NCBI GenBank assembly: GCA_017506865.1
Contig: JAFCMP010000511.1
Span: 186,001-250,000, forward strand
Direction: 5' to 3'
DNA length: 64,000 nt
Source: Tribonema minus
Lineage: Eukaryota > Sar > Xanthophyceae > Tribonematales > Tribonemataceae
This document shows, piece after piece, positions 13,895 through 45,324 of this stretch; position 1 is the first letter of the stretch; every line of letters starts with the position of its first letter. The translations under genes were made by a program, and so were the position numbers. The notes beneath the pieces were generated by a model, which saw only the letters and a program-made list of their open reading frames with translations, did not search any database and was not told the origin of the DNA.

Positions 13895-14049
13895 CCTGTG
13901 AAAGGCACAAAAGTGCTACCAGGCACTGGACCAGGATGATGGATTGTTTAAAAAGTAAACGCACTGCAGCTCAGCTGCGATATTTCTAGCCAGGCCCTGC
14001 TCCACGGGCATGCACCTAAGTATTACTAACTCAAGTTAACCTCAGCTGA
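13895..14049. repeat. Repeat family E, copy 1
   Basis: About 155 bp that recurs nearly identically at 24365-24521, containing GGCACTGGACCAGGATGAT and ending in CAGCTGAT. In both copies it is followed immediately by ATAGTAC and a family-A sequence, so the E/A border is shared. Confidence 0.75.
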
Positions 14050-14262
14050 TAGTACTGTCATACGACATGTAGATTCCTTACAGCTAGATGCCAATCATCT
14101 GGGCTTTTTCGCGCCCTGAGCGAGAATTAATAACAAGTACTTTTTTTAAGTACTTTTTATTGATTCTTTAAGTACTTTTTTATTTTAATTCTCGCTCAGG
14201 GCGCGAAAAAGCCCAGATGATTGGCATCTAGCTGTAAGGAATCTACATGTCGTATGACAGTC
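14047..14262. repeat. Tail-to-tail palindrome of LINE 3' ends
   Basis: The left arm (about 14051-14140) is the near-perfect reverse complement of the right arm (about 14176-14262). Both arms are the 3' terminal segment of the family-A LINE. The roughly 35-bp AT-rich centre holds three AAGTACTT(T) words at 14135, 14148 and 14170. The structure is best read as two A copies inserted in opposite orientation at the same palindromic site. Confidence 0.85.
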
Positions 14263-14286
14263 TGAAAGTGTCGCAACGACAACCAC

Positions 14287-16545
14287 TCAAACGCCGCCGC
14301 CGCCAAATGGCATCTCGGGGTCCTCCCCTACGTCCTCCTCCATGTGCCCCCCCCCCCTGGATTCTGCCATGTGTGTCATGACACGGCCAGAGTACACCAT
14401 GTGGAGCGCTGCCGACAGTGCCGAGCGTAAGCGCGCCAGGGCGATGCCCTTGAGAGCTTCAGGGCGCGCTCCTCCGGGCACTGACATCCTGCTGGCATAC
14501 TCCGTCGCCACAGCCTCCAGCAGCTTCCGCCCCTGCTCCCCGATGCTGCCAAATGACCCTATTGCCAAAGTGGCAAGTTTGTAGCAATTCTGATCATAAT
14601 GACCAGAATAGTGGGTAGTCTTGGCGGCCTCTTGGTCGCGGCAGCATCGCTCGGGGTCTGCTGCAGTCTTCGCCGCCCGCGATGCCACCTGTGCCTCGAA
14701 GCAGGTAACGTCCACCATGAGCGGTAGGTGGCGTGTCGGGTCGTCGTAGCCGGTCACCGGGAAGGCGTCGGCAGGCAGCACGATGTCCAGCCTGCGACTC
14801 CCCGGCGGCCCGGCGGACCCCAGAAACGGCGTGTAGTCCTCGTCCACCAGTCCCGTTTTGAGGTATTGCCGCAGGATGCGCTGCGTGGCCCTCTTGACGC
14901 TATTGTGGACGATGGCGTCGTGCGCCTTGACGCGTGGCGCTTGACACAGCCGTGCATGCAGGGTGCCGCCCGGCGACTTCCCGCACAGCTTGCAGCCTGC
15001 CGTCTGCTCCTCTACTCCGATGGCGCGTTTGACGGCCAGCTGCCAGGATAGGCCATCGAACGAAGCCGTTGTGGAGTACATGGGCTCGTTGAGGAATGCC
15101 ATGCCGATCGAGTGCATGTGGCGCTGCGACCGGAATCGAGCAAGTGCTTGCGTGCGTTGCGTGCCCTGCGGCAGCTGTTGCAGGTCCGCCTCCACCTTAT
15201 CTGCAAGCTCGGTAGCGATGGCATCTGCAAGCGCACTCTGATTGGGGCGCTTCAGGCTACACTGCAACTGCAGAGCACTGGCGTCAAGTACGCAAGCAGC
15301 ATCCGCACCAGTGCCACCACCTGCTGTCGGCCGCAGCGGCGGCTGCTGCGTAGGTGGTTGCTGCTGCAGTGGCGTTAGCGCTGGTGGCAGTATATGTTCC
15401 AGCTTGTCACCTGTTGCGGCACGTAGAGATGTGGCAGCTGTGGCGATCGTCCGCATGAGGGGCAGGCGCGCCACCTCTGCTGCTGCTGCGCCTTGTAGCA
15501 TTGCTGGTGTGGAACGCGCAGCGCCTGCATTGACGGCTGCCGCTGCTGCGTGCGCTGGTGCTGCAGCTGCGCCGCCTGCTGTTGCTGCTGCTGCCAGTGG
15601 TGTTGCTGCTGCCGCAGGTGTTGGTGCAGCACCTGCCGCATTGGCCGCTGCCACCGCCATTGCCGCTGTCGCAGCCGGCACGGTTGCGGCGCCGCCTGCC
15701 GACGCTGCTCCTGTTGCAGGTGCTGCAGCAGCCCTTAGGCTAGTAGGGCCTGTAGCAGCTGTGTTGCCTATGCCCGCAGCCGCTGCTGTTGATGCTGCAG
15801 TTAGTGTCAGTGATGCCGCCGAGGCCACTTGAGGTGCAACATGTGCTGCCGCTGCTGCAGCAGCCTCTGATGCTGGAGCAGCTGCTGCTGCCGCCGCTGC
15901 TGCTGCCGCCGGAGTAGTTGCGCCGTGCGCCGCCGCTGCTGCTGCTGCCGCTGGTGCCGCCTGTGCTGCCGCCGCGGCCCCTGATCCAGCGGCAGCTGCG
16001 TCGTGTGTTGCCGGAATGGCTGCGCCATAAGCGCGGCCAGCCGCTGATGCAGTTGCCGCTGCCGGAGCGGTCGCGCCTCCACTGGCAACCGCCGCTGCCG
16101 CTGTAACAGTTGCCGCTGCTGATGCTGCTGGTGCTGGTGCTGCTGCCGCTGCTGCCGGTGCCGCTTGTGTTGCCGCATCCTCAGCAGCGTTGTCTGCAGC
16201 CGCTTGAGGAGCCGCCTGCTGCAGCACACCCGCCCATCCAGAGAGTGCTGGTTGCAGCGCTTGCAACGTGCCCGCCACATACGCAGCATCAGCGATGTCG
16301 CAGGCGCTGGTAATGCCAAGGCCGCCATGCCGTGTTGGGAGTTGCGCTTGCTGTAAGGCTGGGCCGTGCGCTGCCAGATGGAAGTGGGCCCCACTTTGCT
16401 CAAACTGGCGCCAGGTCTGGCCTGGTGGCTGCAGGCCCATTGAGTGCTCAAGCACCCACTGCGTGACCCGATCCCACTCCTTGGCGGCTGGCGCTGTCTG
16501 CATAGTGGGAATGGTGCGCAGGCAGTACGTCATGCGAGGCACCAC
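14287..16545 (-). pseudogene. LINE C-terminal segment: thumb, Ala-rich linker, CCHC and RLE-like endonuclease
   Basis: This 752-codon open segment starts with MTYCLRTIPTM, the post-RT region, and carries LPTRHGGLGI. A long A/P/T-rich linker of about 270 residues follows. A conserved tail has CKLCGKSPGGTLHARLC, matching CxxC-x8-H-x3-C, and then RRLDIVLP...LMVDVTCFEAQ...K...Y, which fits the PD-(D/E)xK-like nuclease of R2-type LINEs. It ends in a glycine-rich PEMPFGGGGV. This frame is intact over its whole length, and the last 95-186 residues stay open in the truncated copies at 43.3-44.5 kb. Confidence 0.82.
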
Positions 16546-16745
16546 GCACTATAGCGCAGTAACCTGAACATAGCCCTCGGAGATGTCAGGCGCGCGCATC
16601 GCTCTGCATATCGAGCCCCTGCCCCGCTTGCACCCGCTTCCCTGCGCAGCCATGCGTCCACAAAGCTGCTGTGGCCCACCGGCACCCCCAGCAACACCGC
16701 TCCACGGTTCTGATTTTCATCCGTATCCCCCACTAGCTGAACGCC

Positions 16746-17435
16746 CTACTGCTGCAGCAGTTGCCGCTCGTGGTCTGTCACGACATGCCCCCTGCCAGGC
16801 AGCGCGCGTGACTTGGTGAGGTTTAGCTCCAGCCCCACCTCCGCAAAGTGTTGTTTGAGCTGCGCCACCGCCTGTATGTCATCCTGAGTCAGCGTGCAAG
16901 CGCCTGTTCGGACGTTGGCATCGTCCATGTAGGCGCCCATCCGCCTCCGCGCGCGCTGCGCGGCCGCCGCCTCATTGAACCGTTTCAAGCACTGAGCAAT
17001 GGCGCCGCAGAAGAGCATCGGTGCCGCGGGGTCCCCCTGCTTAAACCCGCGCTGAGACATGATGATGCGCGTGGAGCCGTCGACGTGCTGGAACAGCAGG
17101 CGTGGCCGAGTGCGAACGTATGTGCCGATGAAGTAGTCGAGGAAGTCCGGCAGCTGTGCTGCTACCCATTCCGCTGCCGCCAGGACGAACACCATGTTGA
17201 AGGCATTCTTGAGGTCCAGCATGAACTGCCAGTGACCGAGCTCATACGCGAGTTTGCCGGCCATGGCCGCTTTCTCCGCTCCTGCTGAGACGGCTACCCC
17301 ATACTGCCCGTCTGGCTCAAGGAGCTCCGCCAGGAAGTATTTGCAGTCTGCCACGTACACCGAAGTGCACAGTCGCTGCAGCACCTCGCCGCAAACGATG
17401 GGCCGCTGCTTAGCTGTACCATCTTCCTTCTGCAA
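16746..17435 (-). pseudogene. LINE reverse transcriptase core segment
   Basis: This 229-codon segment contains the RT finger/palm motifs in order: RPIVCGEVLQRL, FMLDLKNAFNMVF (first catalytic Asp), RGFKQGDPAAPMLF and MGAYMDDANV (catalytic DD). A partly overlapping segment (17410-18138, other frame) supplies the upstream SPYSGAGPSGLRYSHLQ motif, and 16530-16733 supplies the downstream LLGVPVG motif. Together they show a complete RT domain spread over several frames. Confidence 0.85.
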
Positions 17436-18150
17436 GTGGCGTCAGGCGCCCCGCGCCATGCAACTGCCAGAAGGCATCCGGCAGCCGCGCAGCCTCCCGC
17501 ATAACGGTCTGAAGCCACCGTGAGAGGACAGCAGCAAACTCATGCCGTCCCCAGCTTGTGCGTAGCGCATCCTGCAGGTGGCTGTAGCGCAGCCCCGATG
17601 GGCCTGCTCCACTGTAAGGGCTTGCTCGCTGGATGAGCTTGGCAACCGTCTCTGGCTCAATTCCCTCCCCCTGTAACAGGCTGAGTTCTGCTGGCATGTC
17701 GGCTGCTTTCGCCACAAGCTGATCAACCATGCCGGATAGCTCATGGAGTTGTTCCCCTGGCGCAGCGGGGGGGGTGTTTGGACTGCATGGCGGCAAAGCA
17801 GTCATCATCAGGTATCGCCACCGTTTTGGGCTGAAGGAAACGCGCTGCCTGCTGTAGCCCCCCCCGTGTGCCCACTGGCATGCACTGTAGGACGTAGGCG
17901 TTGATCGCTGCCTCCGTTTGCTGGCGCGCGCGCCAGCGCCGGTGCGCACGCGCGTGTGCGAGGAGCGCTGGCACCAACCGGTCAAGCTCACCGCGTGCCA
18001 ACATTCTGATTCTGTCGGAGCGAGTGATGCCAGGTGCGCCATCGGTGGAGGTGATGAGTGATGGCATGAGGTGGTGTAGAATCGTGGATCTTTGCAGTCG
18101 CTGCACCCGCCCTGCGGAATCTGGCTCCCGCGCCGCATTGACGAACATCG

Positions 18151-19635
18151 TCATTGTGTGTGCCAACAGATGTGTTGCTGCGTTCTCCAGTGCAGCTCCC
18201 ACATAGCGACGATTGCGTGGTCTAGCACGGCTTCTAGTTGTCGCGAACTGCAGCTTGCACAGCTCATCGAGGCTGATGCTGTCAAGCACTGCTGCGACTG
18301 CAGGGGTTGAGATGGTCCACGTGAAAAGCCCACCTGCCCTACCTGCTGCGCCTGCAGGGCCTGGCGCTGCCGCTGCTGTCGCCGCACCTGCCGCTCTGGG
18401 GCCCCCTCCGCCGCCGCCGCGGCCGCCACGACCACAGCCTCGTCCGCCGCTGTCGCTGCTGCGACCGCTGCCACGGCCACCGCGGCCGTTTTGAGTTCGC
18501 GCGCCACTGCCGCTGTTGCTAGCACCGCACTGCGGCTGCTGGCATCACTGCTGCGGCCGTTGCCAGCGCCGCTGTCCTTAGTACCGGCTGCACTGCCGCC
18601 GCCGGCACTGCTGCTGCTGCCGCCTCCGGTTCTGCTGCCGCTAGTCGCTCTGCTACTGCTGATGTCTGCATCATTGCTGCCGCTGCGAACGCGTCCTCCA
18701 TTGCCACGTCCGCGCCCTCCACTGCGACCCCGACCCCCTCGTGTAGCACTGCTGCCCCTGCGTTCCGGCCTCTTTGAGCTGCCGGAGGAGCTGCTGCCAC
18801 CAGCCTGAGCAGCAGGTGCCTGCTGCGCGTGCGCTGGTCCCTTTGCGTAGGGGTTGCCGATGGGTGTGCACGCCGGTTGCTGCTGTGGCAGCGACGTGGT
18901 AGCTGTTGCCGTCGATGCATCAGGTGCTAGCGGTGCTGCTGATGCTGTTGTTGACAATGTTGCCGCCACTGCAGCGGGTGAAGTGATAGGCCTGCAGTTG
19001 CGGCAGTGCTTGCCCACGCTGGTATCGCTGCTGTCCCCTCTGAATGTCTTGTTGGCATGAAACAGGTTTTTGCACAAGGCACACTCGGTGTAGATGGTTT
19101 GCAAGTGTGAGGTGCTGAGGTCGGAGCGCTCCAGGAACGTTGTTGCTGTCCCACTGTGGTGTTCGCGCTGGTGCTTCGCCGCGATGTGGGCGTTTAACCT
19201 CTGCTGTAACGAGAGCAGCGACATGCCCTTCTTCACCACGAGGTCGCATAAGTTGCACTTGTACTCCGGGTCCGCACTGCCTCCACCTCCAGCTTCGTCG
19301 TCTAGCATCAGACGTTGCTGTTCCAGACTGTTATGACCTGTTCTAGAGCGCTTGACTGCACTTTGCCCGCCCGTGTGCTCCCCTTCGCCTGTTTGATCGG
19401 AAATTGACCAACCGTCATTCTGTACCCTCTTGCGTTTGTGCGCTGCGCGTCCGTCTCCAGTTGCTCTGCTGCTGCCACTCGTGCCATCGTCTTGTTGACA
19501 AGCGCCATTGCCATCTGCAGCACTGGTGCTAATATCCTGCGCTTGTGCGCACGCTAGATCGGATTCCTTGCATTTCTGCGCTGATTCAGAGTTGGCAATA
19601 CGGGCCTCCCGCCGCCGCCATGATATTCTTTTCAT
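18151..19635 (-). pseudogene. LINE N-terminal segment with zinc-finger motif
   Basis: A 494-codon open segment beginning MKRISWRRREARIAN. It has basic patches (KRKRV) and a CNLCDLVV...LNAHIAAKH finger of the C2H2 kind that R2-like LINEs use for target DNA recognition. A CALC...CRNC pair and long Ser/Gly/Ala/Arg-rich tracts follow. The frame changes before the RT domain; an overlapping segment (17741-18289) continues with a conserved helical linker. Confidence 0.7.
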
Positions 19636-19740
19636 GATCTCTGCTACGCCATGGTGCTACATGCTACAGCTACATACCTATCCGCATCTCGTGCAGGCTG
19701 TACTATGCTTTGTACCTTTGCTTTGCTGTACTTGTAGGGG

Positions 19741-20820
19741 AATGTACTTTTATTATATTCCACTTGTGGCTGTGGAAATGCCATGTTGTAGGTGTGTCGC
19801 CTTGTTCTCACTCTTGGATGTAGCATGCAAAGCTTGCACGCCACACCCCGCCCCCCACATCACCCCCAACAAAGCACCCGCAAGCGACTGTCCCCCACAT
19901 ACTAGCAGGGATACCAAACAAAGCTACAAGACTCTCCACCCACAGACAGACCCGTCTTAGGGCCACCCAGCTCCACGCAGACTCCATCTCAAAGTTTTCA
20001 TGCAGGCCAAGGTCACCATAATGGGCCCTGAACTGGAGATTGTGGCTATCTACGTGAACCCCGATATCATAAAGATAAGCAGAGGGAGTCACTGGGCGCC
20101 AGGCGCTGACGCTAGAAAGAAAGGCTATATAACTAAGCAAAGCATCGCCTCCTTGATGAGCGGGACGGTGGTTCACCGGGCCTCCCATATCACCCCCAAC
20201 AAAGCATCCGCAAGCGACTGTCCCCCACACACTAGCAGGGATACCAAACAAAGCTGCAAGACTCTCCCCCCACAGACAGACCCTTCTAAGGGCCACCCAG
20301 CTCCACGCAGACTCCATCTCAAAGTTTTCATGCAGGCCAAGGTCACCATGATGGGCCCTGAACTGGAGATTGTGGCTATCTACGTGAACCCCGATATCAT
20401 AGATATAAGCAGAGGGAGTCACTGGGCGCCAGGCGCTGACGCTAGAGAGAAAGGCTATATAACTAAGTAAAGCATCGCCTCCTTGATGAGCGAGGTCACG
20501 GCTCACCGCAGGCTGCAAGCCTGACAAGATATTGCCATTTACCGCTGCGAGTAACTTGTGGTTGGTGCCGTGGTGTGCAGCCGACTCCGCTTGCTCTCCA
20601 AGCACGCCAAGCCGCTGCCTGTCCCTCCTCCGCACGCCAGCCAGGGCTTCCGAGACACCACCACACGTTTGAAGTTCTCTCGAACTTGAAGGGGCTACGC
20701 ACGCTGGCATCACCTGAGGGCCGCTGGTGCTAGCTCCTGCAAGCCCTGCAGCCCAGCCCACCCACCAAACCAGCCGCATTCGCTGCCACGCCTTTCGGCG
20801 TTAACGAGCTTGGGACGCTA
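19741..20820 (-). repeat. Repeat family B, full-length copy 1 with internal duplication
   Basis: About 1.08 kb, nearly identical to 40756-41830. It begins on the plus strand with ATGTACTTTTATTATATTCC and ends near TTAACGAGCTTGGGACGCT. A segment of about 310 bp is duplicated in tandem (about 19850-20160 and 20170-20470). The minus strand holds a 323-codon open frame (19808-20779) shared with the other full copy, with repeated blocks such as AHQGGDALLSYIAFLSSVSA; the plus strand is also open over part of it. No known domain is seen. With its tail like that of family A, it is most simply a non-autonomous retroelement. Confidence 0.75.
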
Positions 20821-20838
20821 GTGTACTTCGCAGCTCGC

Positions 20839-20968
20839 TGTACTTTTTATTAAATCTCGCTCAGGGCGCGAAAAAGCCCAGATGAATGGCAACTAACTTG
20901 AAGCTTGCTGTACGGAATCTACATGTAGTGTGACAGTCTGAAAGTGTCTCAACGACAACTACGCCTGA
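20839..20968 (-). repeat. Family A' short element, copy 1
   Basis: A 130-bp unit starting TGTACTTTTTATT, with CTCGCTCAGGGCGCGAAAAA as in the LINE 3' end and then a diverged segment. It ends at AACTACGCCTGA, the same end point as the copy at 24522. The shared 3' part and fixed 5' end suggest a SINE-like passenger using the LINE tail. Confidence 0.7.
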
Positions 20969-21559
20969 TAGTACTTTTTATTCATTCTCGCTCATGCTAC
21001 TAGCTAGGCTATTAGTCTACCAATAGTAAGCGCTTGCAAGCGGCGGCATCATCATGTGCCTCTCCCAACAACCAGACATTCTGAGATACCATACTACACT
21101 GGCAATACAACCATTCAATGCTACCGAATGTACGTGTGCACACGTGTCGTCTAATGAGTCTTATCTTCTGTGTTGCAGAAAATCGGAGATGCATGCCACT
21201 CAGTGACTGCCAGCCCCTTCCCGTTCAAGCAGTTGAGAAGTTCGTCCAGCCAAGCACCGAAGCTTTGCTTTGCTGGCGGCTTTCGTCCTGCCGTTGGCCA
21301 CCCCGCCCTGCAGCTGCTGGCCAGCCTGGCCTCGCAGACGTGCTCGCACTTTTTGCGCCGCCCGCCGAGCCGCCAAGCTAAGCCGAAGCCAACAAGGCCG
21401 CCGAAGCTTTAGAGTGGTCCACATGATTTTTCTCGCAGGGGTTGAAGAGGCAACAACTTCTGTACATGCCAACTTCGAAGCTACATTGCACACACACAAC
21501 ACACCTTGAGCAGCAGCAAAAGGAGCGCATAGCCAGCGCGCAGGAATGCAAGAGCAGGT
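20969..21559 (-). repeat. Repeat family F, copy 1
   Basis: About 590 bp, nearly identical to 33424-34014. It begins TAGTACTTTTTATTCATTCTC on the plus strand and ends at GCAAGAGCAGGT in both copies, so both termini appear natural. It contains no recognisable coding domain. Confidence 0.8.
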
Positions 21560-22154
21560 TGGCCTTCGCCGGTGAACAGCAGAGCAGCAGAAAGGCCGAC
21601 ACTGGTTGATTGGTGGGGGTGAGGGCCACAACACCAGTGCTGCTGTGACAGGGAAACTGAAGTGTGTACTGAAGAAGGGCGAGGAGGTGACACTCCACTA
21701 GGGTTTGAACTTATGAGCCTGCACCTAGGGCTTGGAGCCCCTATCCACGTAATTCCCCCTTCGACAAAGAGAGCTGCGGGGTCCGAAAACCTTCCGGTCG
21801 GCAGGGGAGAAAACGGTACCCTCGAACTAGCTTAGGGCGTCGCAGGCTTCGTGCCCGCTTCAAGGGTTAGGCTCATGGGTTACCAACTTCAAGTGTAAGC
21901 CAGCACAATCTGCGGCACACTCAGTGATGCGTACGCGCTTGCACACATCACAACCAATCGCTGGGAACGTGCTAGTGTCCACACCTATAGCACGCACCAC
22001 CTTGCCTGCTCCAGACACACATGCTGCTAATGTCACAGCAAGTTGAGATCTGTCTGTGTGCAAGTGCAACAGCGGTAGACGCAGAGCTTGTCATGTAACA
22101 GCAGGTACCATGACATTGCCTCCTGACGCCTTCCACATCCGCTAAGCAGAGGCT
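21560..22154. other. Repeat-rich spacer, no gene seen
   Basis: Nothing coding is recognised. The segment near 21686-21745 (GGTGACACTCCACTAGGG and following) recurs in diverged form at 24296-24355. On the minus strand it resembles a degraded tRNA T-arm (GTTCAAACC), so it may be a SINE remnant. Confidence 0.35.
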
Positions 22155-24005
22155 GCTGCTACCCCTGCGACTGTGGTTTGTACATATGGTGGTGCACTGC
22201 ATGCACTTGCCCATCATCTTCTGGCGGTACGACCACCGCTACCCAGCCACCCCAGTGGCTTCCACTATTGCCCTTCTGCGTGCGCTCGCCAAAAGGCGCC
22301 TTGCGCAGTCGCCCGTCCAGTTGCGCTGTGCTGAGCGTCACCACTGTCCCAATTTCTACGCCGCCTGTGGCCTGCGTCGACGCCTCCCGCGTGATCCCCG
22401 CTTGCGGTGCCCTCGTGCCGCATTGGCGCCACATCTCCCTGGCCAGCCTGTGCACTCTCTGCGCGACGCTTGCGCATTGGCAGATGGCCGACTGCCCGTG
22501 ATGCTATTATGGTGCCCTTGAACTTGCGGCGCTTCTCCCGTGCACTCATGCTCTGTGAAACTGCTGCTTGCCGGCTTCCAGCAGTAGTAGCACACATGCT
22601 GTCTGCGCGCTTTTGCGAACCTCGCGTCATGCGCCTCACGAATACTCTGCAGACGCTCAGCGTCAGCTGCCATCATGCGCCCATACCGCGCCCTGCCACA
22701 TGAGGCGAAAGCAGCAGTGGCGGCAGCAACCGGATATGCATCGTCATCAGCGTCACTTTCGTCACCAGCATAGTGCTGCTTGTGAAGCGCGTCGCTGCAA
22801 CGTCACGGTGCTGCGCCCTTTGGTTCATGGTCTTAAGGATATTATTGTTGCTCACTTCCACATACGCTGCAACCTTTCAATAAATTGGTCCGCAGGCATC
22901 TCAACAGGGTTGGCATCTTGCTGATACACCTCCCGCGCCTCTTCAGGGAAGCCTCTCAGCAGTATGGACTTCGCCAAAGTACCATCATGATTGGTGTCAG
23001 CGCTCAACCTCACCAGCAACTGCACTTGCTGATCGCGGAATGCCCTGGGCTCTTCACCTCTCTTCGCTTCTTATATTCACCATTTCTTGTGCAGCTTCAT
23101 GCTGAGCATGACTGCCTGCATATCTGTTCACAATGTAGCTTCTTGCATTTGTGTACATGTGCCCTCATGAAAGGGGGTCCCTCAAACAGCCTTCCCCTCC
23201 TGTCAACGGATGGAATGGTCAGGCATATGTACTTGTCTTGCTCCACACTCTGCAAGTATTTCAACTGCCTTTCCTCCTCTGTGAGCTTTGGCCTCAGGCT
23301 CAGCTTGTCACATCTGCAGTGCGGTTCCACAGGGGGCTGCAGTCAATCTTAGGCAGCTCAAGCTTTGTCTTATGTTCTTTCTCAGCGTCAACCGCGACGC
23401 GACTGCTCTGTGTGCTCCGCGCGCCGCGTGGCCTGACCGGCGTGACATGACCTTGCGCCCCATCTGAGCTGAAAGCAGCGTCAACCACTGGTGCATATGC
23501 AACTGGTATGTGAGCAAAGCGCACTGCGCGCCTCTCCCGCTCCCGTTCGTCCGCAAAAGCTCGTGCTGCGTCCCTGCTCTCGGGCACCCGCGCACTGCTT
23601 GGGAGTCACATGGCCATCACAATGGTGTCTGCGTCTGCGAGGGCATCATCTGTTATTCCTGCCCGGAGGCCACAATTCCATCATTTCAAGTGGTCTCCAA
23701 TTTCACGTGACCGTCCCGTCATATGCAAACGCCATCTTTTCTTCATTGAGCACGAACTGATCCTCCCCTGCTGACATCTGCTCAGATAACCCTGTGGCAT
23801 ACTGGTCCCATGCCTTCAAGTACATCACATAGTATCGCTTCTTACTGCGTCAAGCGCCAATCTTGAATCAAGCGCTCCGCTTCATTGCGCGCTGCAGTGC
23901 AGAGTAATTGAAGGCGGCGTTACTCATACTGTTCACGGCCTGCGTAGACAGGTCAATGCGAGTTGTCAAGCCCAGTTTGCGCACGCCCTTCATAGTGTGC
24001 CTTGT
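22155..24005 (-). pseudogene. Unidentified degraded coding block
   Basis: Protein-like segments appear on the minus strand in shifting frames: near 23880-24003 (RKLGLTTRIDLSTQAVNSM), about 23720-23850 (KKRYYVMYLKAWDQYA), 23300-23587 (ERERRAVRFAHIPVAYAPVV), 23097-23330 (LRPKLTEEERQLKYLQSVEQ), about 22880-23060 and 22159-22676 (HVCYYCWKPASSSFTEHEC; then GSHWGGWVAVVVPPEDDG). The Cys/His cluster could bind zinc. The block sits among mobile elements and is broken in several places. I do not recognise the family; a lost transposon gene or a decayed host gene are both possible. Confidence 0.4.
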
Positions 24006-24364
24006 GAGTCCTTATTGTTCCATCGCTTGCTCTTATTAGCTCAACCAGGTGTCTTGCCTTTATATGCCGCACCACGGCATGTAGTCACAGCCTGCCCTTC
24101 CCTGCGGCTGCTGTCTGTCATTATCAGCCTCATTCCCCTTCGGGCGCTGCGGGCCGCCCGCTGCTGCTGCCCGTCCCGGCGCTGGCAGCTTGCCTCTGCC
24201 CTTCCGACCGTCACCTCCGCTCTTGCAGCCCACATGAGGCCATCACGCCTCTACAATGCCAGGATGAAACCCAAATCAGGCCTCCACTCCGCGAGGAGGT
24301 GACACTCCACTAGGGCTTGAAGTTGGAGGAGCCTGCCTTTAGGAGGAGCCTATCCACACAAAGC
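24006..24364. other. Spacer upstream of the degraded block
   Basis: No coding exon is recognised. It contains the second, diverged copy of the 21.7-kb tRNA-like short repeat (about 24296-24355). Confidence 0.35.
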
Positions 24365-24521
24365 TGTCTATGAAAGGCACAAATGCTACCAGGCACTGGA
24401 CCAGGATGATGAAATGTTTAAGAACTAAACGCACTGCAGCTCAGCTGCGATATTATCTGCCAGGCCCTGCTCCACGGGCATGCACCTAAGTATTACTAAC
24501 TCAAGTTAACCTCAGCTGATA
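24365..24521. repeat. Repeat family E, copy 2
   Basis: Near-identical to 13895-14049 and followed, as there, by ATAGTAC at the start of a family-A-type unit. Confidence 0.75.
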
Positions 24522-24652
24522 TAGTACTTTTTATTGATTCTCGCTCAGGGCGCGAAAAAGCCCAGATGAATGGCATCTAACTTGAAGCTTGCTGTACGGA
24601 ATCTACATGTAGTGTGACAGTCGGAAAGTGTCTCAACGACAACTACGCCTGA
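24522..24652 (-). repeat. Family A' short element, copy 2
   Basis: About 130 bp, matching 20839-20968 with a few substitutions and ending at the same AACTACGCCTGA point. Repeat B begins directly after it with GTACTTTTATTATATTCC. Confidence 0.7.
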
Positions 24653-24816
24653 TAGTACTTTTATTATATTCCACTTGTGGCTGTGGAAATGCCATGTTGT
24701 AGGTGTGCCGCCTTGTTCTCACTCTTGGATGTAGCATGCAAAGCTTGCACGCCACACCCCGCCCCCCACACCACCCCCAACAAAGCACCCGCAAGCGACT
24801 GTCCCCCACATACTAG
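24653..24816 (-). repeat. Repeat family B, copy 2, left part (interrupted by MULE)
   Basis: The first 164 bp of a B repeat, ending in CACATACTAG. The same B copy resumes at 33113 beyond the MULE, starting with the same 10 bp. Intact B copies at 19.9, 40.5 and 40.9 kb give the uninterrupted sequence, showing precisely where the MULE inserted. Confidence 0.92.
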
Positions 24817-25002
24817 CGAAGCCCATATTTGGGCCAGCCTGGCCCAAATATCTCGTGGGCCAGGTAGGCCACGTCATCCGCTGAGAACTGCGCTGCTGTC
24901 GCACCCGAAGAGACACTCATTGTGCCCAGCAAAGCGCCCTGGTGGCGTACGACAGCTACTACACCAGCAGAGCGTTGGCGGATGGGGCGAGGCTTGCAGA
25001 GC
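24817..25002 (+). repeat. MULE left terminal inverted repeat
   Basis: Starts CGAAGCCCATATTTGGG. At positions 9-35 it holds a perfect palindrome with 13-bp arms (ATATTTGGGCCAG) around one base, a plausible transposase binding site or hairpin. It matches the reverse complement of 32912-33112. Confidence 0.93.
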
Positions 25003-33112: not shown

Positions 33113-33423
33113 CACATACTAGCAGGGATACCAAACAAAGCTACAAGACTCTCCCCCCACAGACAGACCCGTCTTAGGGCCACCCAGCTCCACGCAGACT
33201 CCATCTCAAAGTTTTCATGCAGGCCAAGGTCACCATAATGGGCCCTGAACTGGAGATTGTGGCTATCTACGTGAACCCCGATATCATAAAGATAAGCAGA
33301 GGGAGTCACTGGGCGCCAGGCGCTGACGCTAGAAAGAAAGGCTATATAACTAAGCAAAGCATCGCATCCTTGATGAGCGGGACGGTGGTTCACCGGGCCT
33401 CCCATATCACCCCCAACAAAGCA
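33113..33423 (-). repeat. Repeat family B, copy 2, right part
   Basis: Continuation of the B repeat split by the MULE. It is truncated at its far end, where CAACAAAGCA meets the TAGTAC start of repeat F. Confidence 0.9.
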
Positions 33424-34014
33424 TAGTACTTTTTATTCATTCTCGCTCATGCTACTAGCTAGGCTATTAGTCTACTAATAGTAAGCGCTTGCAAGCGGCG
33501 GCATCATCATGTGCCTCTCCCAACAACCAGACATTCTGAGATACCATACTACACTGGCATTACAACCATTCAATGCTACCGAATGTACGTGTGCACACGT
33601 GTCGTCTAATGAGTCTTATCTTCTGGGTTGCAGAAAATCAGAGATGCATGCCACTCAGTGACTGCCAGCCCCTTCCCGTTCAAGCAGTTGAGAAGTTCGT
33701 CCAGCCAAGCACCGAAGCTTTGCTTTGCTGGCGGCTTTCGTCCTGCCGTTGGCCACCCCGCCCTGCAGCTGCTGGCCAGCCTGGCCTCGCAGACGTGCTC
33801 GCACTTTTTGCGCCGCCCGCCGAGCCGCCAAGCTAAGCCGAAGCCAACAAGGCCGCCGAAGCTTTAGAGTGGTCCACATGATTTTTCTCGCAGGGGTTGA
33901 AGAGGCAACAACTTCTGTACATGCCAACTTCGAAGCTACATTGCACACACACAACACACCTTGAGCAGCAGCAAAAGGAGCGCATAGCCAGCGCGCAGGA
34001 ATGCAAGAGCAGGT
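33424..34014 (-). repeat. Repeat family F, copy 2
   Basis: 591 bp, nearly identical to 20969-21559. Its right border coincides with the first codons of the adjacent Zn2Cys6 gene: the ATG at 34001 lies inside the repeat and the gene-specific sequence begins at about 34014. Confidence 0.82.
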
Positions 34015-37000: not shown

Positions 37001-38875
37001 GGGTGGCGTACCTGGGCTGGCTGGCACTGGTGAAGGTGCGTTGCGGATGCCGCGTGTTGCGCACGAGTAGCGCTAGGCAGCGCCGTGCGGCATTGCAGGG
37101 AAGCTGAACTTACTCGCGCGGTGTGCTCGGCATCGCCAACGACTGTGAGGCGCGCTCTCTCGGCCATGTGTCTCTCGCGAGCCGCACTGCACTTACTGGC
37201 ACGATGCTGAGCGGCCTGCACCTCGCAGCCCAGGCCAGCCACCACTGCGCTGCCTCGGCGCCACGTGCCATCACTTTGCCGCGTGCAATGCGCTCGCGCT
37301 GCCCCTCCAGCAAGTCTGAGCAGCTTTGCCATTGCCGCGCTCACTGTCCTCCCGGACTCCCCCACTAGACTCGCGCTGCCGCCGCCACCGCTCGCCGCTC
37401 CATAGGGACTTGCACTCACTTCAACTGTGACTCTCCTCTCCGCACGCGCCGCGCGCAGCTGCTGCTGAGCGACGACCACGGCTGGCAGGCCGCTGTGGAG
37501 CGCTTCATCGCCGCGCTTGCAGCCGCGCCGGGCGTGCTGCGCTGGAGCCACAGCGCTCACCGCGCGGAGCTGCTCGCGCTGATCCTGATGCACCGCAACC
37601 AGACCGCACTGTGAGTCCCGCCGCCGCCATGGGCGTTGTGTGGAGGTGCCTGCGCGACGCCGGGCCTTGTCGCGTATACGCTGCAGTGTGCGGAACGTCC
37701 TTGTCAGTCTACGCATGTGTACAATGGTGGCGCAGGACGCCACCGGTGACCGAGTGCGCTTGCCCGCTGCAGAGTACATGCGCGCCTTGTTGCACCCCGC
37801 TGCCGCCTACTGCAGAGTAGTACTTGCATGCGTTCTTAAGATCTTGTCTCGAGCGGAACAGCGCAAATACGCACATCACCGCAGCACCAGACTGATATCC
37901 GCGCCATCATCGCCTGCATGCGTGCACAACAGGCTCGAGCGCATGCGCGACGTCCACATGGGCGCTGCCGCCGCCTGCGGCCGCGCCGCGCTGCCGCCGG
38001 CGCACGCGTGCGTGCCCGCGCACGACTCGTGCGCGCACGCCCTCTGCCGCGACATCCTCAGGAGGGCCGGCGTATTCTCTATGCGCGAGGCAGCGGAGGG
38101 GGCGGCGGCAGCAGCTGCGCCGGCGGCGGCAGCGGCTACGAGCGCCGCCGCGTCGTTGAAGACGGAGGAAGAGGCGGCGTCCGCGGAGTACGCGGCAGCA
38201 GACGCCGGCATGGCCAGCGTACCGGATCTAGACAGGCACGATTCACTGCTGCCGCAGCTGGAGCTCCTGCAGCAGCGCAAGATCGTGGTGACGGCGCACG
38301 AGTGGGCGAACGTCCAGCACCTGCTGCCGCCGCCGCTGCTGCCGTCGTCGCCGCCGCTGCCGCAGCAGCAGCAGCTCGCCGCGGGCTGCGCGCAGTGGCC
38401 GAGCGATGTGCATGACATGCGCATGCATCCCGGCCGCGGCGGCGCTGCCGGCGGCGGCGACTACTTTGCGCTGCGCACCGCGCGCGCCAGCTCTCGCGGC
38501 GGCGCCTACGGGTACGCGAGCGGCGCTTGCAGCGGTGACGACGACGACGACGGCGGCGACGGCGAGGACTGCGGCAGCGCGGTCTGGTCTGACGGTCGTG
38601 GCATATTTAGCCACAGCGATGGCGGCATCTGCAGCGTCAGCACCAGCGCCACGCTCTGCAGCCTCGGCGCCGTCATCGCCGGGCCGCACGGCCCCAGCGC
38701 GTGCTGCGCGCCCGGCGTGGGGCCCGTCCCCGACATGATGGAGGCAGCGCTCAGCGTCTACAACCACCGCGCTGCTGCTGACAGCGACGTGCACGGCGCG
38801 GAACTCGACGGCCACTTCGACCACGCGCTTTCAGATGAGCTGGTCACACTCGACGACCTGCTCGGCGCCGCGTGA
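34001..38875 (+). CDS. Zn(II)2Cys6 (fungal-type binuclear cluster) transcription factor, paralog 1
   Basis: Four exons, 34001-34221, 35133-37035, 37459-37610 and 37933-38875, join in phases 2, 0 and 2 to a 1072-residue protein. Residues 1-73 form a helical module (VEHVAKIVFEPEQ...LAQFLTELTETND). The split codon then leads to RLACDHC: Cys 78, 81, 88, 96, 99 and 106 give CX2CX6CX7CX2CX6C, a canonical zinc cluster with the basic KRKR loop. After a Ser/Gly/Ala-rich linker, a conserved helical region (from about residue 383, FLRDVSAFLPIIGEGPLRRAM; VHDCLGDAAAFMATAADAL) parallels the middle homology region of such factors. Exon 3 adds an all-helical stretch, exon 4 a CxxH/CAHALCRDIL block, poly-Ala and an acidic tail (ELVTLDDLLGAA) suited to activation. 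DNA-binding regulator in the nucleus; targets unknown. The start codon lies in repeat F, so the original N-terminus may be lost. Confidence 0.82.
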
Positions 38876-40346
38876 CGCCGCTGCCGCGCCAGCAGCGCGG
38901 CTGCGCGGCGGCGGCGCGGTTAGCAGCACCGGCACCGCCCCCGCAGCACGGGCAGCTGCACGTTGCCTTTACAACGGAGATTCAAAGCGGCGGGCGATAG
39001 AGGCTTTCACCAACCCCCTTCCCCCCCCCCCCCCCCCCCCTCCGCTGTCCGCGGCTGGCGTGAGTGGACACTACGGGTCCACACGCTCACACCGCCGCGG
39101 CGGCGGCAGCGGCTGCTGCCATGCGTGAAAGCGTGCGCACACGTCGACACGTGGCGCGCGCGTGTGCGTGGGAACTTCAACACGCACGACCCCTTTCGGC
39201 TGTGCTGCCAGTACTTCGCCCATCTGGCACGCCTTCCCTTTGTATCCCCCTTCTGCTGCCAGTAATCCGCCAGTCTGGCACGCCCTCTCTTGCCCTCTCT
39301 CCCAAAGTCAGGTTTGCTCTTTCCCCTGTCTCAGCAGCCATGCGGCCCCATGATGCGGGACACGCCTTGCACCGTTTGGAATGTCAGAAGATCGCCTTTG
39401 TGTCCGTAGCATCAGCCAACCCCCGGCGCAGGTTACCTGTGCCACACCTAGAGCGCCGGTCTCCTGTGGGTGAATGTCGTGGCGGGCAGACATTCCGTCA
39501 GGCACAACAACAACAGGCATTGAGCCTTCTGCCCAATGCCAAGTCAGCGCACCAACCGGTTTTGAACGTCCGTTCAAGAGCCGCAGGTTTACAGCTCCCC
39601 CCCCCCCCCTTTTAGGCGACTTCCCTGTATAGGACGCGATGAAGGAGGAGCTTTGTATTGCAGTGTGCGTAGCCCAAGGGACTCTGGCCTCTCCAAAGGC
39701 TGTTTAGCAGGTGTTTCAGAGCGGTGTGGCGTAAAGCCTCCAGTGAGTAGACAGCCTGCACTCCGTGCTGGCAGTCTGATGCGTGTGCAAGTGCCGTTCG
39801 CTTGTGATAATGAATGAGCCCAATGCCCCTGCCTCTCTGCACCGGCTGCAGGTACCCCGGGTGATCGTGCATCCTTTTGCCCTTCCCCTCGCAACTGCAT
39901 GGTCCATATGTATGTGCGGTCTGTTCTGCGGTCATGCAGGCCGTTGTGAGTGCCCGTTGCGTGCCTCAATGCCCCTGCAGCAATCTGTGCCGCCTTGCGT
40001 GTACTTCTTTGCGCGATCGCATTTGAAGGTTGGAGATGTCATATGCATATTGCTTGTGCGCATGCAGGCGCGGTCACCACGAGCGCAATTCCTGCACGAT
40101 GTGGTGACAACACGAGCAAAGTGTACGCATGCTTGTACCTGCACGACATTTTGTCGTATATGTGTCAGGACATGTGCATCGCGCTTGTGTTCGGCACCTT
40201 TACAATGTCATGATGCTGTCGACACACAAGCGCAATGCATGTCTTGTACATGTGCGCCATTGCGCGAACACAAGCACAGTGCACGTGTTTTGATGCTAAT
40301 TGATGCTTGAACCTGTGCAGTACCATGGCATGACACCAAGATGACA
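38876..40346. other. Intergenic region downstream of paralog 1
   Basis: No supported gene. It contains a C-rich homopolymer stretch at about 39019-39041 that may be mis-sized, and a cluster of short imperfect inverted repeats around 40070-40290 made of CAC/GTG-rich words. Confidence 0.4.
40070..40290. repeat. Cluster of imperfect inverted and direct repeats
   Basis: Variants of ACACAAGCGCAATGCA recur on both strands: as its complement at about 40170-40190, and directly near 40223-40240 and 40265-40285. Together they could fold into alternative hairpins. No gene or known element is attached. Confidence 0.45.
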
Positions 40347-40755
40347 TATGTACTTTTATTATATTCCACTTGTGGCTGTGGAAATGCCATGTTGTAGGTG
40401 TGTCGCCTTGTTCTCACTCTTGGATGTAGCATGCAAAGCTTGCACGCCACACCCCGTTCCCCACATCATCCCCAACAAAGCACCCGCAAGTGACTGTCCC
40501 CCACATACTAGCAGGGATACCAAACAAAGCTACAAGACTCTCCCCCCACAGACAGACCCGTCTTAGGGCCACCCAGCTCCACGCAGACTCCATCTCAAAG
40601 TTTTCGTGCAGGCCAAGGTCACCATAATGGGCCCTGAACTGGAGATTGTGGCTATCTACGTGAACCCCGATATCATAAAGATAAGCAGAGGGAGTCACTG
40701 GGCGCCAGGCGCTGACGCTAGAAACAAAGGCTATATAACTAAGCAAAGCATTGCC
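40347..40755 (-). repeat. Repeat family B, copy 3, 5'-truncated
   Basis: Starts ATATGTACTTTTATT and runs 409 bp, ending at AAGCAAAGCATTGCC, where the next B copy starts with TATGTAC. Truncation at the side opposite the common tail is as expected for target-primed reverse transcription. Confidence 0.85.
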
Positions 40756-41830
40756 TATGTACTTTTATTATATTCCACTTGTGGCTGTGGAAATGCCATG
40801 TTGTAGGTGTGTCGCCTTGTTCTCACTCTTGGATGTAGCATGCAAAGCTTGCACGCCACACCCCGCCCCCCACATCACCCCCAACAAAGCACCCGCAAGC
40901 GACTGTCCCCCACATACTAGCAGGGATACCAAACAAAGCTACAAGACTCTCCCCCCACAGACAGACCCGTCTTAGGGCCACCCAGCTCCACGCAGACTCC
41001 ATCTCAAAGTTTTCATGCAGGCCAAGGTCACCATAATGGGCCCTGAACTGGAGATTGTGGCTATCTACGTGAACCCCGATATCATAAAGATAAGCAGAGG
41101 GAGTCACTGGGCGCCAGGCGCTGACGCTAGAAAGAAAGGCTATATAACTAAGCAAAGCATCGCCTCCTTGATGAGCGGGACGGTGGTTCACCGGGCCTCC
41201 CATATCACCCCCAACAAAGCATCCGCAAGCGACTGTCCCCCACACACTAGCAGGGAGACCAAACAAAGCTGCAAGACTCTCCCCCCACAGACAGACCCTT
41301 CTAAGGGCCACCCAGCTCCACGCAGACTCCATCTCAAAGTTTTCATGCAGGCCAAGGTCACCATGATGGGCCCTGAACTGGAGATTGTGGCTATCTACGT
41401 GAACCCCGATATCATAGAGATAAGCAGAGGGAGTCACTGGGCGCCAGGCGCTGACGCTAGAGAGAAAGGCTATATAACTAAGTAAAGCATCGCCTCCTTG
41501 ATGAGCGAGGTCACGGCTCACCGCAGGCTGCAAGCCTGACAAGATATTGCCATTTACCGCTGCGAGTAACTTGTGGTTGGTGCCGTGGCGTGCAGCCGAC
41601 TCCGCTTGCTCTCCAAGCACGCCAAGCCGCTCCCTGTCCCTCCTCCGCACGCCAGCCAGGGCTTCCGAGACACCACCACACGTTTGAAGTTCTCTCGAAG
41701 GGGCTACGCACGCTGGCATCACCTGGGGGCCGCTGGTGCTAGCTCCTGCAAGCCCTGCAGCCCAGCCCACCCACCAAACCAGCCGCATTCGCTGCCACGC
41801 CTTTCCGCGTTAACGAGCTTGGGACGCTGC
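40756..41830 (-). repeat. Repeat family B, copy 4, full-length
   Basis: About 1.08 kb, nearly identical to 19741-20820, with the same internal duplication of about 310 bp and a 321-codon minus-strand open frame (40823-41788). It ends TTAACGAGCTTGGGACGC before the next TATGTAC unit. Confidence 0.85.
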
Positions 41831-41920
41831 CTATGTACTTTTTTACTTTCGCTTCGCAATGCGAAAAGCCCTCTCTTTGGATGTGCACTCAATGCAACAT
41901 TCCTTCTCCGAAGAGAGACT
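41831..41920 (-). repeat. Array unit C, short
   Basis: A 90-bp unit between two TATGTACTT starts (41833 and 41920). It has its own sequence (TTTCGCTTCGCAATGCGAAAA, with an inner palindrome) and is seen only once. Confidence 0.55.
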
Positions 41921-42450
41921 ATGTACTTATGATCTTGTATTTATAGCAGCCCCAAGGTGGGCTTGATGCGTTGGATCAGATTGCAAAAAACTAAAATCGG
42001 ACGGGCCCTTAGAGCCCTGCGTTGCAGGCTTGTACTAGACTCATGGGGGGCAGACACAGCGGCACCCAGTCTGAGCCACACCTATCGTAGCCGATGTCTC
42101 CATCTCTTGAGCGAAAACGCCGGAGGACCGCGGTTATGCCTCTAGTATACATTTGGGCCAGAGGCGCCCGGTCCTCGATTCCTTGCCTAAGCACGCCGCT
42201 GACGTGCCTGGCCGAGGTTCTCTTTCTTGCGTGTTCAAGCAAACGATCTACAGTGTGCCCTGATGCTATCCGTATCCCCATGTTCCAATATCCCCTGCTG
42301 CTGCCCAAAGCCGTATCCTCAACACACGCGACTCCGCAGCTCCTGCTCACAGCCAGCATCTCCCATCCCCTTGCTGCCTGATGCACCCTCGCCACCATCA
42401 GCGCCACCGCGAGCGCTGCCGCACCTCTCGGTGCTAACGAGCAGAGTACT
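41921..42450 (-). repeat. Repeat family D, copy 1
   Basis: About 530 bp starting ATGTACTTATGATCTTG and ending GGTGCTAACGAGCAG. Near-identical to the next unit. A minus-strand frame of 132 codons (42009-42407) is kept open in both. No domain is recognised. Confidence 0.8.
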
Positions 42451-43010
42451 ATGTACTTTTTACTATGTACTTATGATCTTGTATTTATAGCAGCCCCAAG
42501 GTGGGCTTGATGCGTTGGATAAGATAGGCAAAAAACTAAAATCGGACGGGCCCTTAGAGCCCTGCGTTGCAGGCTTGTACTAGACTCATGGGGGGTAGAC
42601 ACAGCGGCACCCAGTCTGAGCCACACCTATCGTAGCGGATGTCTCCATCTCTTGAGCGAAAACGCCGGAGGACCGCGGTTATGCCTCTAGTATACATTTG
42701 GGCCAGAGGCGCCCGGTCCTCGGTTCCTTGCATAAGCACGCCGCTGACGTGCCTGGCCGAGGTTCTCTTTCTTGCGTGTTCAAGCAAACGATCTACAGTG
42801 TGCCCTGATGCTATCCGCATCCCCATGTTCCAATATCCCCTGCTGCTGCCCAAAGCCGTATCCTCACCACACGCGACTCCGCAGCTCCTGCTCACAGTCA
42901 GAGCCAGCATCTCCCATCCCCTAGCTGCCTGATGCACCCTCGCCACCATCAGCGCCACCGCAAGCGCTGCCGCACCTCTCGGTGCTAACGAGCAGCTGGT
43001 GTGTACAGGT
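42451..43010 (-). repeat. Repeat family D, copy 2
   Basis: A 14-bp TGTACTTTTTACTA stub is followed by the second D copy from about 42464. Its 134-codon frame (42554-42958) differs from copy 1 mainly by a 6-bp in-frame insertion. It ends GGTGCTAACGAGCAG like copy 1, so both look full-length. Confidence 0.8.
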
Positions 43011-43145
43011 CTATGTACTTATTATTAATTCTCGCTCAGGGCGCGAAAAAGCCCAGATGATTGGCATCTAGCTGTAAGGAATCTACATGTCGTATGACAG
43101 TCTGAAAGTGTCGCAACGACAACCACTCAAACGCCGCCGCCTAAG
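43011..43145 (-). repeat. Family A (LINE) 3' end, truncated copy
   Basis: About 130 bp of the LINE 3' region only, beginning CTATGTACTTATTATTAATTC and cut at AAACGCCGCCGCC. Confidence 0.85.
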
Positions 43146-43836
43146 TCTATGTACTTTTTATTAATTCTCGCTCAGGGCGCGAAAAAGCCCAGATGATTGG
43201 CATCTAGCTGTAAGGAATCTACATGTCGTATGACAGTCTGAAAGTGTCGCAACGACAACCACTCAAACGCCGCCGCCGCCAAATGGCATCTCGGGGTCCT
43301 CCCCTACGTCCTCCTCCATGTGCCCCCCCCCCCTGGATTCTGCCATGTGTGTCATGACACGGCCAGAGTACGCCATGTGGAGCGTTGCCGACAGTGCCGA
43401 GCGTAAGCGCGCCAGGGCGATGCCCTTGAGAGCTTTAGGGCGCGCTCCTCCGGGCACTGACATCCTGCTGGCATACTCCGTCGCCACAGCCTCCAGCAAC
43501 TTCCGCCCCTGCTCCCCGATGCTGCCAAATGACCCTATTGCCAATGTGGCAAGTTTGTAGCAATTCTGATCATAATGACCAGAATAGTGGGTAGTCTTGG
43601 CGGCCTCTTGGTCGCGGCAGCATCGCTCGGGGTCTGCTGCAGTCTTCGCCGCCCGCGACGCCACCTGTGCCTCGAAGCAGGTAACGTCCACCATGAGCGG
43701 TAGGTGGCGTGTCGGGTCGTCGTAGGCGGTCACCGGGAAGGCGTCGGCAGGCAGCACGATGTCCATCCTGCGACTCCCCGGCGGCCCGGCGGACCCCAGA
43801 AACGGCGTGTAGTCCTCGTCCACCAGTCCCGTTTTG
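43146..43836 (-). mobile_element. Family A LINE, 5'-truncated copy with endonuclease C-terminus
   Basis: 691 bp. It keeps the C-terminal 186 codons in frame (43263-43823, DEDYTPFLGSAGPPGSRR to PEMPFGGGGV), almost identical to the long copy at 14.3 kb. Truncation at CAGTCCCGTTT is followed directly by the next copy's TGTACTTTTTATT. Confidence 0.9.
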
Positions 43837-44066
43837 TACTTTTTATTAATTCTCGCTCAGGGCGCGAAAAAGCCCAGATGATTGGCATCTAGCTGTAAGG
43901 AATCTACATGTCGTATGACAGTCTGAAAGTGTCGCAACGACAACCACTCAAACGCCGCCGCCGCCAAATGGCATCTCGGGGTCCTCCCCTACGTCCTCCT
44001 CCATGTGCCCCCCCCCCCTGGATTCTGCCATGTGTGTCATGACACGGCCAGAGTACGCCATGTGGA
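43837..44066 (-). mobile_element. Family A LINE, 5'-truncated copy
   Basis: 230 bp of 3' sequence, identical over most of its length to 43151-43380 and cut at CGCCATGTGG, where the next copy begins with ACTTTTTATTAATTC. Confidence 0.88.
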
Positions 44067-44500
44067 CTTTTTATTAATTCTCGCTCAGGGCGCGAAAAAG
44101 CCCAGATGATGGTCTAACTTGATGCTGCTGTACGGAATCTGCATGTCGTGTGACTTCTGAAAGTGTCTCAACGACAACCACTCAAACGCCGTCGCCGCCA
44201 AATGGCATCTCGGGATCCTCCCCTACGTCCTCCTCCATGTGCCCCCCCCCCCTGGATTCTGCCCTGTGTGTCATGACACGGCCAGAGTACGCCATGTGGA
44301 GCGCTGCCGACAGTGCCGAGCGTAAGCGCGCCAGGGCGATGCCCTTAAGAGCTTTAGGGCGCGCTCCTGCGGGCACTGACATCCTGCTGGCATACTCCGT
44401 CGCCACAACCTCCAGCAGCTTCCGCCCCTGCTCCCCGATGCTGCCAAAAGACCATTGCCAAAGTGGCAAGTTTGTAGCAATTCTGGTGATAACCAGAATA
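44067..44500 (-). mobile_element. Family A LINE, 5'-truncated, more diverged copy
   Basis: About 430 bp with LINE C-terminal coding sequence (95-codon frame, 44182-44469) and a more diverged 3' end that resembles the A' variant. It is cut near CCAGAATAGTG and followed by a weakly similar TATTTTTATTGGGTCTTGCTC start. Confidence 0.82.
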
Positions 44501-45324
44501 GTGTATTTTTATTGGGTCTTGCTCAGTATATGTGCAGTGCACTTGTACACAACACTCCACTCAACATACTTGCAGCGCCGCTTTCATTGCAATTCTTGAC
44601 ATTGAACAACCTGCCTCACAACGGGCGTGCGCACGACTTGTTGATGTTCATGGACTTGTCAGTGATGGTGTTCAGCGTTACATCATTGTAAAGTCAAGTG
44701 AATATTCTTGTGTCAGCTGATATGGGTACAACCAAAGAAGTTGCACTGCAGTGCTGCTGGGCCTTCTTTGAATCTGAACGTAGCAAGTAGATTCCAGCCG
44801 CATGGATGGCATGGCATGGCATGGCATCGGAGGCAAAAGAAGATGCCTGACAGGAAGCGTCCTCTGTCACGTCGCCCCCACAAGGAAATGCAGGCTGATG
44901 CCATAATCACGTCACGTCACGTCACGTGCCACCGTCCTCACGACTTTCGTCGGCAGAGAGCTCTCGCCGATATACAGTTGAGTTCTAGAAGAGACGGACA
45001 GCATCACTCGGGGACACTCTGTCATGTGTGAGGGCTCAGGATCGCCATCGCCATCAGCACCGCAAACACAGTAGCACTGCAGGAGAGCGTGCATTACATC
45101 GTGAGAGTTTGAGGTCAGCAACTAAAAAATTTGCCCCCCCGCCACGTTGCACTTCAAAGCTGGACAAAACACCGAGGCGCTCGCGCAGCAGCCGACAGAC
45201 AGACCCGACAGACACACTGGGACTAGACACACAGCCACCCACACCAGGTGCTGCTGCGAAGAACATAGCGACAGGTACCGGTATGTGGAGTTGAACTTCA
45301 GGGTCACACGTCGACGTCGACGCC
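44501..45324. promoter_or_regulatory. Upstream region of Zn2Cys6 paralog 2 with CACGT repeats
   Basis: No coding exon is seen. A run of four overlapping TCACG(T) units at 44907-44928 ends in CACGTG, about 400 bp before the start codon; such ACGT-core sites bind bZIP or bHLH factors in other eukaryotes. A four-copy GGCAT run lies at 44807-44827. The regulatory role is inferred from position only. Confidence 0.35.

Follow-up and report, generated by a model that had tools for sequence, protein, structure and literature searches.

How do several retroelement families with unrelated bodies come to be stacked head to tail, in one orientation and with one common end? The question is raised by two arrays in a stretch of 64,000 nucleotides (nt) from Tribonema minus (GenBank assembly GCA_017506865.1, contig JAFCMP010000511.1, positions 186,001 to 250,000 of the forward strand), which we call the window and number from its first base. 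Both arrays fall within 31 kb of it. We consider it probable, at roughly 70%, that they grew by serial target-primed reverse transcription, in which a long interspersed nuclear element (LINE) of a family that we term A inserts into a GTAC-centred target with which copies already in place end on their 3′ side.

Array 2 (40347-44503) consists of nine units in one orientation, in the order B, B, C, D, D, A, A, A, A, just as the preliminary description of this DNA had it, together with one tail-only unit of 17 nt (Table 1). C, a single 86-nt copy within the window, is counted as a unit by its tail alone. The description had found no unrelated DNA between the units, and indeed they fill 4138 of 4157 bases (a count that takes in C and the tail-only unit), the remaining 19 bases forming three gaps of 3, 13 and 3. 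Its cut points, at 40755, about 43145, about 43835 and 44066, proved correct within a few bases. The shared plus-strand start that it gave as (TA)TGTACTT is also there: TGTACTT opens eight of the nine units, and TATGTACTT stands at the start of seven. The ninth unit, A4 (44067), begins at ACTTTTTATT, preceded by GG. With up to one mismatch, TGTACTTNTTATT has 11 matches in the window, 10 of them on the plus strand (mean over 100 shuffles, 0.05). Among the five truncated units no two are equal in length, no block of several units is repeated, and the unit pairs compared, other than A2/A3, are 92-99% identical.

The coding frames of A show that the sense strand of the elements is the minus strand, and the common end is therefore their 3′ end, which reads ...AAGTAC. 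On its minus strand the window has 18 occurrences of the motif A[AT]AAGTAC, all 18 within the array regions, whose boundaries we drew ourselves; on its plus strand it has none. A tail-like stretch at 44502-44526, possibly a decayed older tail, adjoins A4 in array 2. None of 95824 windows outside the arrays came within 9 mismatches of the A tail; control strings, reversed and complemented, reached 9 and 8 mismatches over the whole window, and the stretch is therefore notable by its position only.

The same families recur in the same orientation, bar one inverted piece, in a larger array 1 at about 13.9-34.0 kb. This array, with its coding copy of A, goes beyond the preliminary description, as do the possible decayed tail and the array-specific junctions described below. 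Within the long E unit of array 1, two similar stretches of ~75 nt, seen by eye, surround ~2.6 kb (21690-24365) and perhaps mark a nested element. A DNA transposon of about 8.3 kb (24818-33112) interrupts one B unit; it has terminal inverted repeats of ~90 bp and an 11-bp target duplication, CACATACTAGC. By the size of the duplication it resembles a Mutator-like element (MULE); a Pfam scan of three of its frames gave no match above cut-off.

The two arrays differ in what follows the common end. In array 2 the bases after AAGTAC are ATAG (GTACATAG) at seven of nine junctions, the others being AAAA and, on the host side, ATAT; in array 1 they are TAT (GTACTAT) at four of seven, the others being AGCG, ATTC and TTAA. 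ATAG stands after the tails of four families in array 2; in array 1, B tails are followed by other suffixes. Over the suffix 8-mers of these 16 junctions, only 7 of 20000 label permutations matched the observed within-array similarity, a figure that is descriptive, since the proposed process would itself relate the junctions of an array to one another; the within-family similarity was matched by 12594 of 20000. Fisher tests gave p=0.0014 for ATA and p=0.019 for TAT. The permutation test left out the A4 junction (AAAAAGT), the AGTAC-TAT near 14050 and the secondary AAGTAC sites at 20828, 19733, 14155 and 14142, and kept the secondary site at 42458, which belongs to the tail-only unit. The junction suffix thus tracks the array rather than the family.

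A single recurrent event would account for this anatomy. The machinery of A would insert a new unit, often 5′-truncated, beside an old one at a GTAC-centred target, and each insertion, with the cuts at presumed positions, would duplicate about 7-8 bp and thereby restore that target (array 2, GTACATAG; array 1, GTACTAT). The target would then never be exhausted, and its variable half would be handed down along the array. Because B, C, D and E have the same tail as A (A-rich, ending in AAGTAC, with a hairpin in A, B and C), we propose that they are non-autonomous families using the machinery of A. Their tails would act as targets too, so families would mix within an array, and 5′ truncation at its most extreme would explain the tail-only units (42445-42461 and 14141-14171). 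The inverted A tail (14054-14140) lies next to the palindrome AAGTACTT, which suggests a target that is open to cutting on either strand.

The reverse transcriptase (RT) domain of A, at 16746..17441 on the minus strand, matches Pfam RVT_1 (E=9.8e-13). Among PDB sequences its best match, a weak one (E=0.046), is 8gh6, which we take to be R2Bm. LINEs with a restriction-like endonuclease (RLE) are described as having, after the RT, a CCHC motif of spacing CX2-3CX7-8HX4C, a variant PD-(D/E)XK site whose lysine lies in KX2KY, and GXW after the fourth strand (PMC5678591). By eye, the C-terminal part of A (14287..15186, minus strand) holds CCHC-like and RLE-like motifs: CX2CX8HX3C after the RT, one residue off the published spacing, and RLD...VDVT...KTTHY, which we compared with the variant with a distant lysine. 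No tryptophan was seen at the place expected for GXW, and because this motif is absent we call A a probable R2-group LINE rather than an assigned member. On these motifs A is probably an RLE-type LINE and a candidate member of the R2 group. The 753-residue C-terminal frame gave three unrelated weak rows against PDB (E at least 0.075). Upstream of the RT, C2H2-like, zinc-finger-like stretches can be seen by eye; Pfam found 0 families in the N-terminal part (18151-19656). LINEs of the RLE type lack an apurinic/apyrimidinic (AP) endonuclease before the RT, and A agrees with this: there was no endonuclease match in the three pieces scanned (18151-19656, 17410-18150 and 17744-18544), the last of which gave Piezo_cap as its sole row, at 0.078 and below that family's cut-off. 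The N-terminal, RT and C-terminal pieces lie in different frames, with at least two changes, and this longest copy is therefore probably broken, introns or programmed frameshifts being the alternative. In viral contigs the patterns for the A RT and for the tail had 0 matches and that for the A C-terminus had 7, none confirmed; in prokaryote genomes the RT pattern had 42, of which the 1 confirmed (35 residues, 40%, in a metagenome-assembled genome of Lachnospiraceae) was judged uninformative.

B, C and D have no blastn match to A, and the A and E tails agree at 23 of 25 positions. The tails of A, B and C carry a hairpin of 6-7 bp, 11-17 nt upstream of the AAGTAC end. Of 500 shuffles per tail, those that reached its score numbered 13, 14, 11, 31 and 13 for five tails of the A type, 4 and 9 for two B tails (identical in sequence) and 12 for C.

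Other routes to a head-to-tail array were weighed. Within a single insertion, an RT that has reached the 5′ end of one RNA might switch to the 3′ end of another, with no new target cuts. Template jumping is documented for R2 enzymes (PMC11371274), and truncated units that adjoin with little filler agree with such one-shot concatemers; the suffixes, however, would then stem from the source locus of each RNA or from random additions, whereas ATAG follows four families in array 2 and the B tails of array 1 carry other suffixes. We therefore regard this route as unlikely. Unequal exchange, break-induced replication or slippage could instead have copied older units as DNA. There is precedent in the MoTeR arrays, where DNA copying is documented and is marked by identical truncation points recurring through the array (PMC7367193). 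The identity of A2 and A3 over 232 nt makes a copy of that one unit possible, and array 1 contains a pair of short A units with one and the same 5′ end; yet these two differ in their 5′-side neighbour (E and B), and array 2, with five truncation lengths and neighbours from four families, contains no repeated multi-unit block, which makes DNA-level growth distinctly unlikely as the general process.

That the arrays are an artefact, a collapsed or misjoined repeat region, would be understandable in DNA so rich in repeats. Most unit pairs, though, are 1-8% different (A2/A3 excepted), the suffix shows consistency, and the DNA transposon with its 11-bp duplication interrupts a B unit cleanly, so that we find this very unlikely. 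Scarcely credible, finally, is that A is a Penelope-like element (PLE) whose tandem copies arose through internal initiation: PLEs are found in tandem or partial tandem in genomes (PMC11167929), whereas GIY-YIG was unmatched in the A pieces scanned, the RT and the CCHC-like motif stand in LINE-like order (by eye), and blastn matched none of B, C and D to A. Serial insertion is favoured because the units vary in family and in 5′ truncation point, share their 3′ end and carry a suffix that follows the array.

Several observations weigh against serial insertion by A. Its putative endonuclease matched 0 Pfam families and 0 PDB sequences up to E=10, and a structure model of the A C-terminus (mean predicted local distance difference test score, pLDDT, 37.6) was discarded as unusable. 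Synonymous to non-synonymous differences between A copies (3:5 over 189 codons and 3:7 over 104 codons) give no clear sign of purifying selection. The suffix test was picked once the suffixes had been seen; three of seven junctions in array 1 (AGCG, ATTC, TTAA) and one of nine in array 2 (AAAA) are off-pattern, and the G at the fourth suffix base of array 2 differs from the host flank after B1 (ATAT). By eye, no GTAC target stands in the 5′ flank of the E unit, at 34013. The A2/A3 identity would also be expected from a local DNA copy. As for the hairpin, none was found in the D and E tails, the result for any single tail is modest (for A and C, 2-6% of shuffles reach the score), and whole-tail folding energies are unremarkable (z from -1.00 to 0.66, 8 tails).

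With these points counted, repeated target-primed insertion at an existing tail, as the preliminary description had proposed, is the best-supported account, given the shared 3′ end and the suffix that follows the array. Its further statement that each copy landed just beyond the previous one is not established as a direction of growth, for insertion into any copy of the junction leaves the same pattern. More tentatively, and at somewhat less than even odds, we suggest that at least five families with unrelated bodies have converged on one regenerating target, their own GTAC tail, in such a way that arrays grow beside genes, host sites are spared, and the junction serves as a heritable barcode of the founding insertion.

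Table 1. Units and related features of the two arrays, in window coordinates.
Feature	Position	Strand	Remarks
Array 1: E-like unit, 5′ fragment	13896..14053	-	AGTAC-TAT precedes in element sense
Inverted copy of A 3′ end, 87 nt, beside palindrome AAGTACTT	14054..14140	+	
Tail-only repeats of AAGTACTT	14141..14171	-	
A, longest LINE copy in window	14172..19741	-	5′ end without a second copy to define it
B, full-length unit	19742..20819	-	98.8% identity to B2
A'', short A-like unit	20839..20967	-	5′ end same as unit at 24524
E unit, about 3.55 kb, possibly with nested insert	20968..24521	-	
A', short A-like unit	24524..24650	-	
B unit split by DNA transposon, first part	24651..24817	-	
Same transposon-split B unit, second part, 5′-truncated	33113..33422	-	
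E, 5′-truncated, closing array 1 on the right (boundary placed by eye)	33423..34013	-	
Array 2: B1, 5′-truncated B unit, 409 nt	40347..40755	-	98.3% identity to B2; 3′ flank AAGTAC-ATATGTC
B2, full-length B unit; holds a direct repeat spaced at 330 nt and a 328-codon stop-to-stop frame, meaning uncertain	40756..41828	-	
C, 86 nt, one copy in window	41832..41917	-	Identified by tail hairpin and AAGTAC
D1, full-length D unit	41918..42444	-	
Tail-only micro-unit, TAAAAAGTAC + ATAG, between D2 and D1	42445..42461	-	
D2, full-length D unit	42462..42995	-	96.8% identity to D1
A1, A unit cut to 133 nt	43009..43141	-	
A2, A unit cut to about 690 nt, with C-terminal coding sequence	43145..43834	-	
A3, A unit cut to 232 nt	43835..44066	-	Identical to A2 over 232 nt
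A4, A unit cut to about 437 nt	44067..44503	-	About 92% identity to other A copies; tail AAAAAGT without AC
Possible decayed older tail, adjoins A4	44502..44526	-	8/25 mismatches to A tail
B/D 5′ RNA-like motif	20781-20809, 41790-41818, 42414-42442, 42965-42993		

B and D also resemble each other at the opposite end. The relation between the ends of their full-length units, already pointed out in the preliminary description, is a common 5′ end: GCTCGTTA, then a hairpin of 5 bp whose loop is of the GNRA type, then GGCAGCG. A 29-nt degenerate pattern drawn from the four full-length B and D 5′ ends matches, with up to 3 mismatches, only those four places. Two of the five hairpin pairs are changed on both sides (compensatory) between B and D, and in one B copy one pair is broken. 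Three of the four ends form the hairpin when folded at minimum energy, and D1 does not; folding energies over 6 5′ ends gave z from -1.54 to 0.56. A ribozyme or an RNA-binding element is possible. At gathering scores Rfam returned 0 families in the window; below threshold there were 7 rows over 40300-44600, Actino-ugpB on the D 5′ region had E=0.07 and 19.5 bits against a cut-off of 42.5, and the B 5′ end of array 1 had 0 rows. Rfam thus gave no known ribozyme at the B and D 5′ ends. The full-length B units hold stop-to-stop frames on the minus strand at 40823-41809 (328 codons) and 19808-20800 (330 codons), with an internal repeat spaced at 330 nt. Pfam gave no match for these frames, and their coding status is contradictory, synonymous to non-synonymous differences being 1:6 between full copies and 7:7 between internal repeats.

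The arrays are interstitial. Open frames with Pfam matches flank each on both sides (9.9-13.1, 35.1-37.1 and 56.2-57.5 kb), and of six telomere motifs searched in the window as two-unit repeats, only TTAGGG was found (59949-59978), far from the arrays. A telomeric reading was rejected, as telomere repeats lie neither between nor beside the units. Among the neighbouring frames, that at 35104-37107 has a fungal-type, Zn2Cys6-like N-terminus (Pfam Zn_clus, 4.1e-06); another at 46081-47889 has a Zn2Cys6-like N-terminus by eye, for which Pfam has no such match.

Comparable stacking is described in the relevant passages of several papers. Zepp and ZeppL, in Coccomyxa and Chlamydomonas, insert into existing copies and so form tandem arrays, mostly of 3′ ends left by 5′ truncation (PMC8226300); nested Zepp clusters also appear in PMC3446292. 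The present arrays likewise consist mostly of 3′ ends, and self-insertion would be the process in common. Zepp is placed with L1 LINEs and forms one cluster per chromosome at probable centromeres, whereas A looks RLE-type by its motifs, the arrays here lie between gene-like frames, and the stacking involves several families whose bodies are unrelated. The preliminary description's comparison with Zepp therefore holds better, in mechanism, than that with HeT-A/TART, except that the autonomous element looks RLE-type and not L1-type. HeT-A, TART and TAHRE of Drosophila do form head-to-tail arrays that mix several families (PMC5537684); they are attached at chromosome ends, and the supposed telomeric likeness finds no support here, given the Pfam-matching frames on both sides and a lone TTAGGG tract at about 59.95 kb.

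The MoTeRs of Magnaporthe oryzae, related to the CRE clade of the R2 group (PMC3636483), form head-to-tail arrays with truncated copies, and MoTeR2 is non-autonomous and shares its ends with the autonomous MoTeR1 (PMC7367193), much as the partner families here have the tail of A. They lie within telomere repeats, with TTAGGG tracts between copies; the units described here have no such repeats between them. GilM and GilT of Giardia, in the CRE clade by RT (PMC10088271), are elements without long terminal repeats that form one-direction head-to-tail arrays, some copies being 5′-truncated (PMC5537684). They lie between subtelomere and telomere repeats, and the passages that describe them do not mention an inherited array-specific junction. 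Utopia, an RLE LINE of the NeSL clade, is target-specific, and Utopia-1_NVit is occasionally in tandem in U2 genes (PMC4640811); its target is a host gene, whereas here the target would be the tails of the element's own kind. Stacking as such is known in algae and at telomeres, and what differs here is apparently the combination of unrelated bodies, one target and a junction sequence inherited per array.

The locus offers a test of head-to-tail LINE array growth that can be read from sequence. Provided that units of one array inherit the variable half of the target duplication, genome data alone would separate serial insertion from template jumping. The arrangement would widen self-targeting of the Zepp type to a LINE that is probably RLE-type, and to families that hitch-hike with the tail alone in common; it would stand midway between site-specific LINEs that are dispersed and arrays at telomeres or centromeres.

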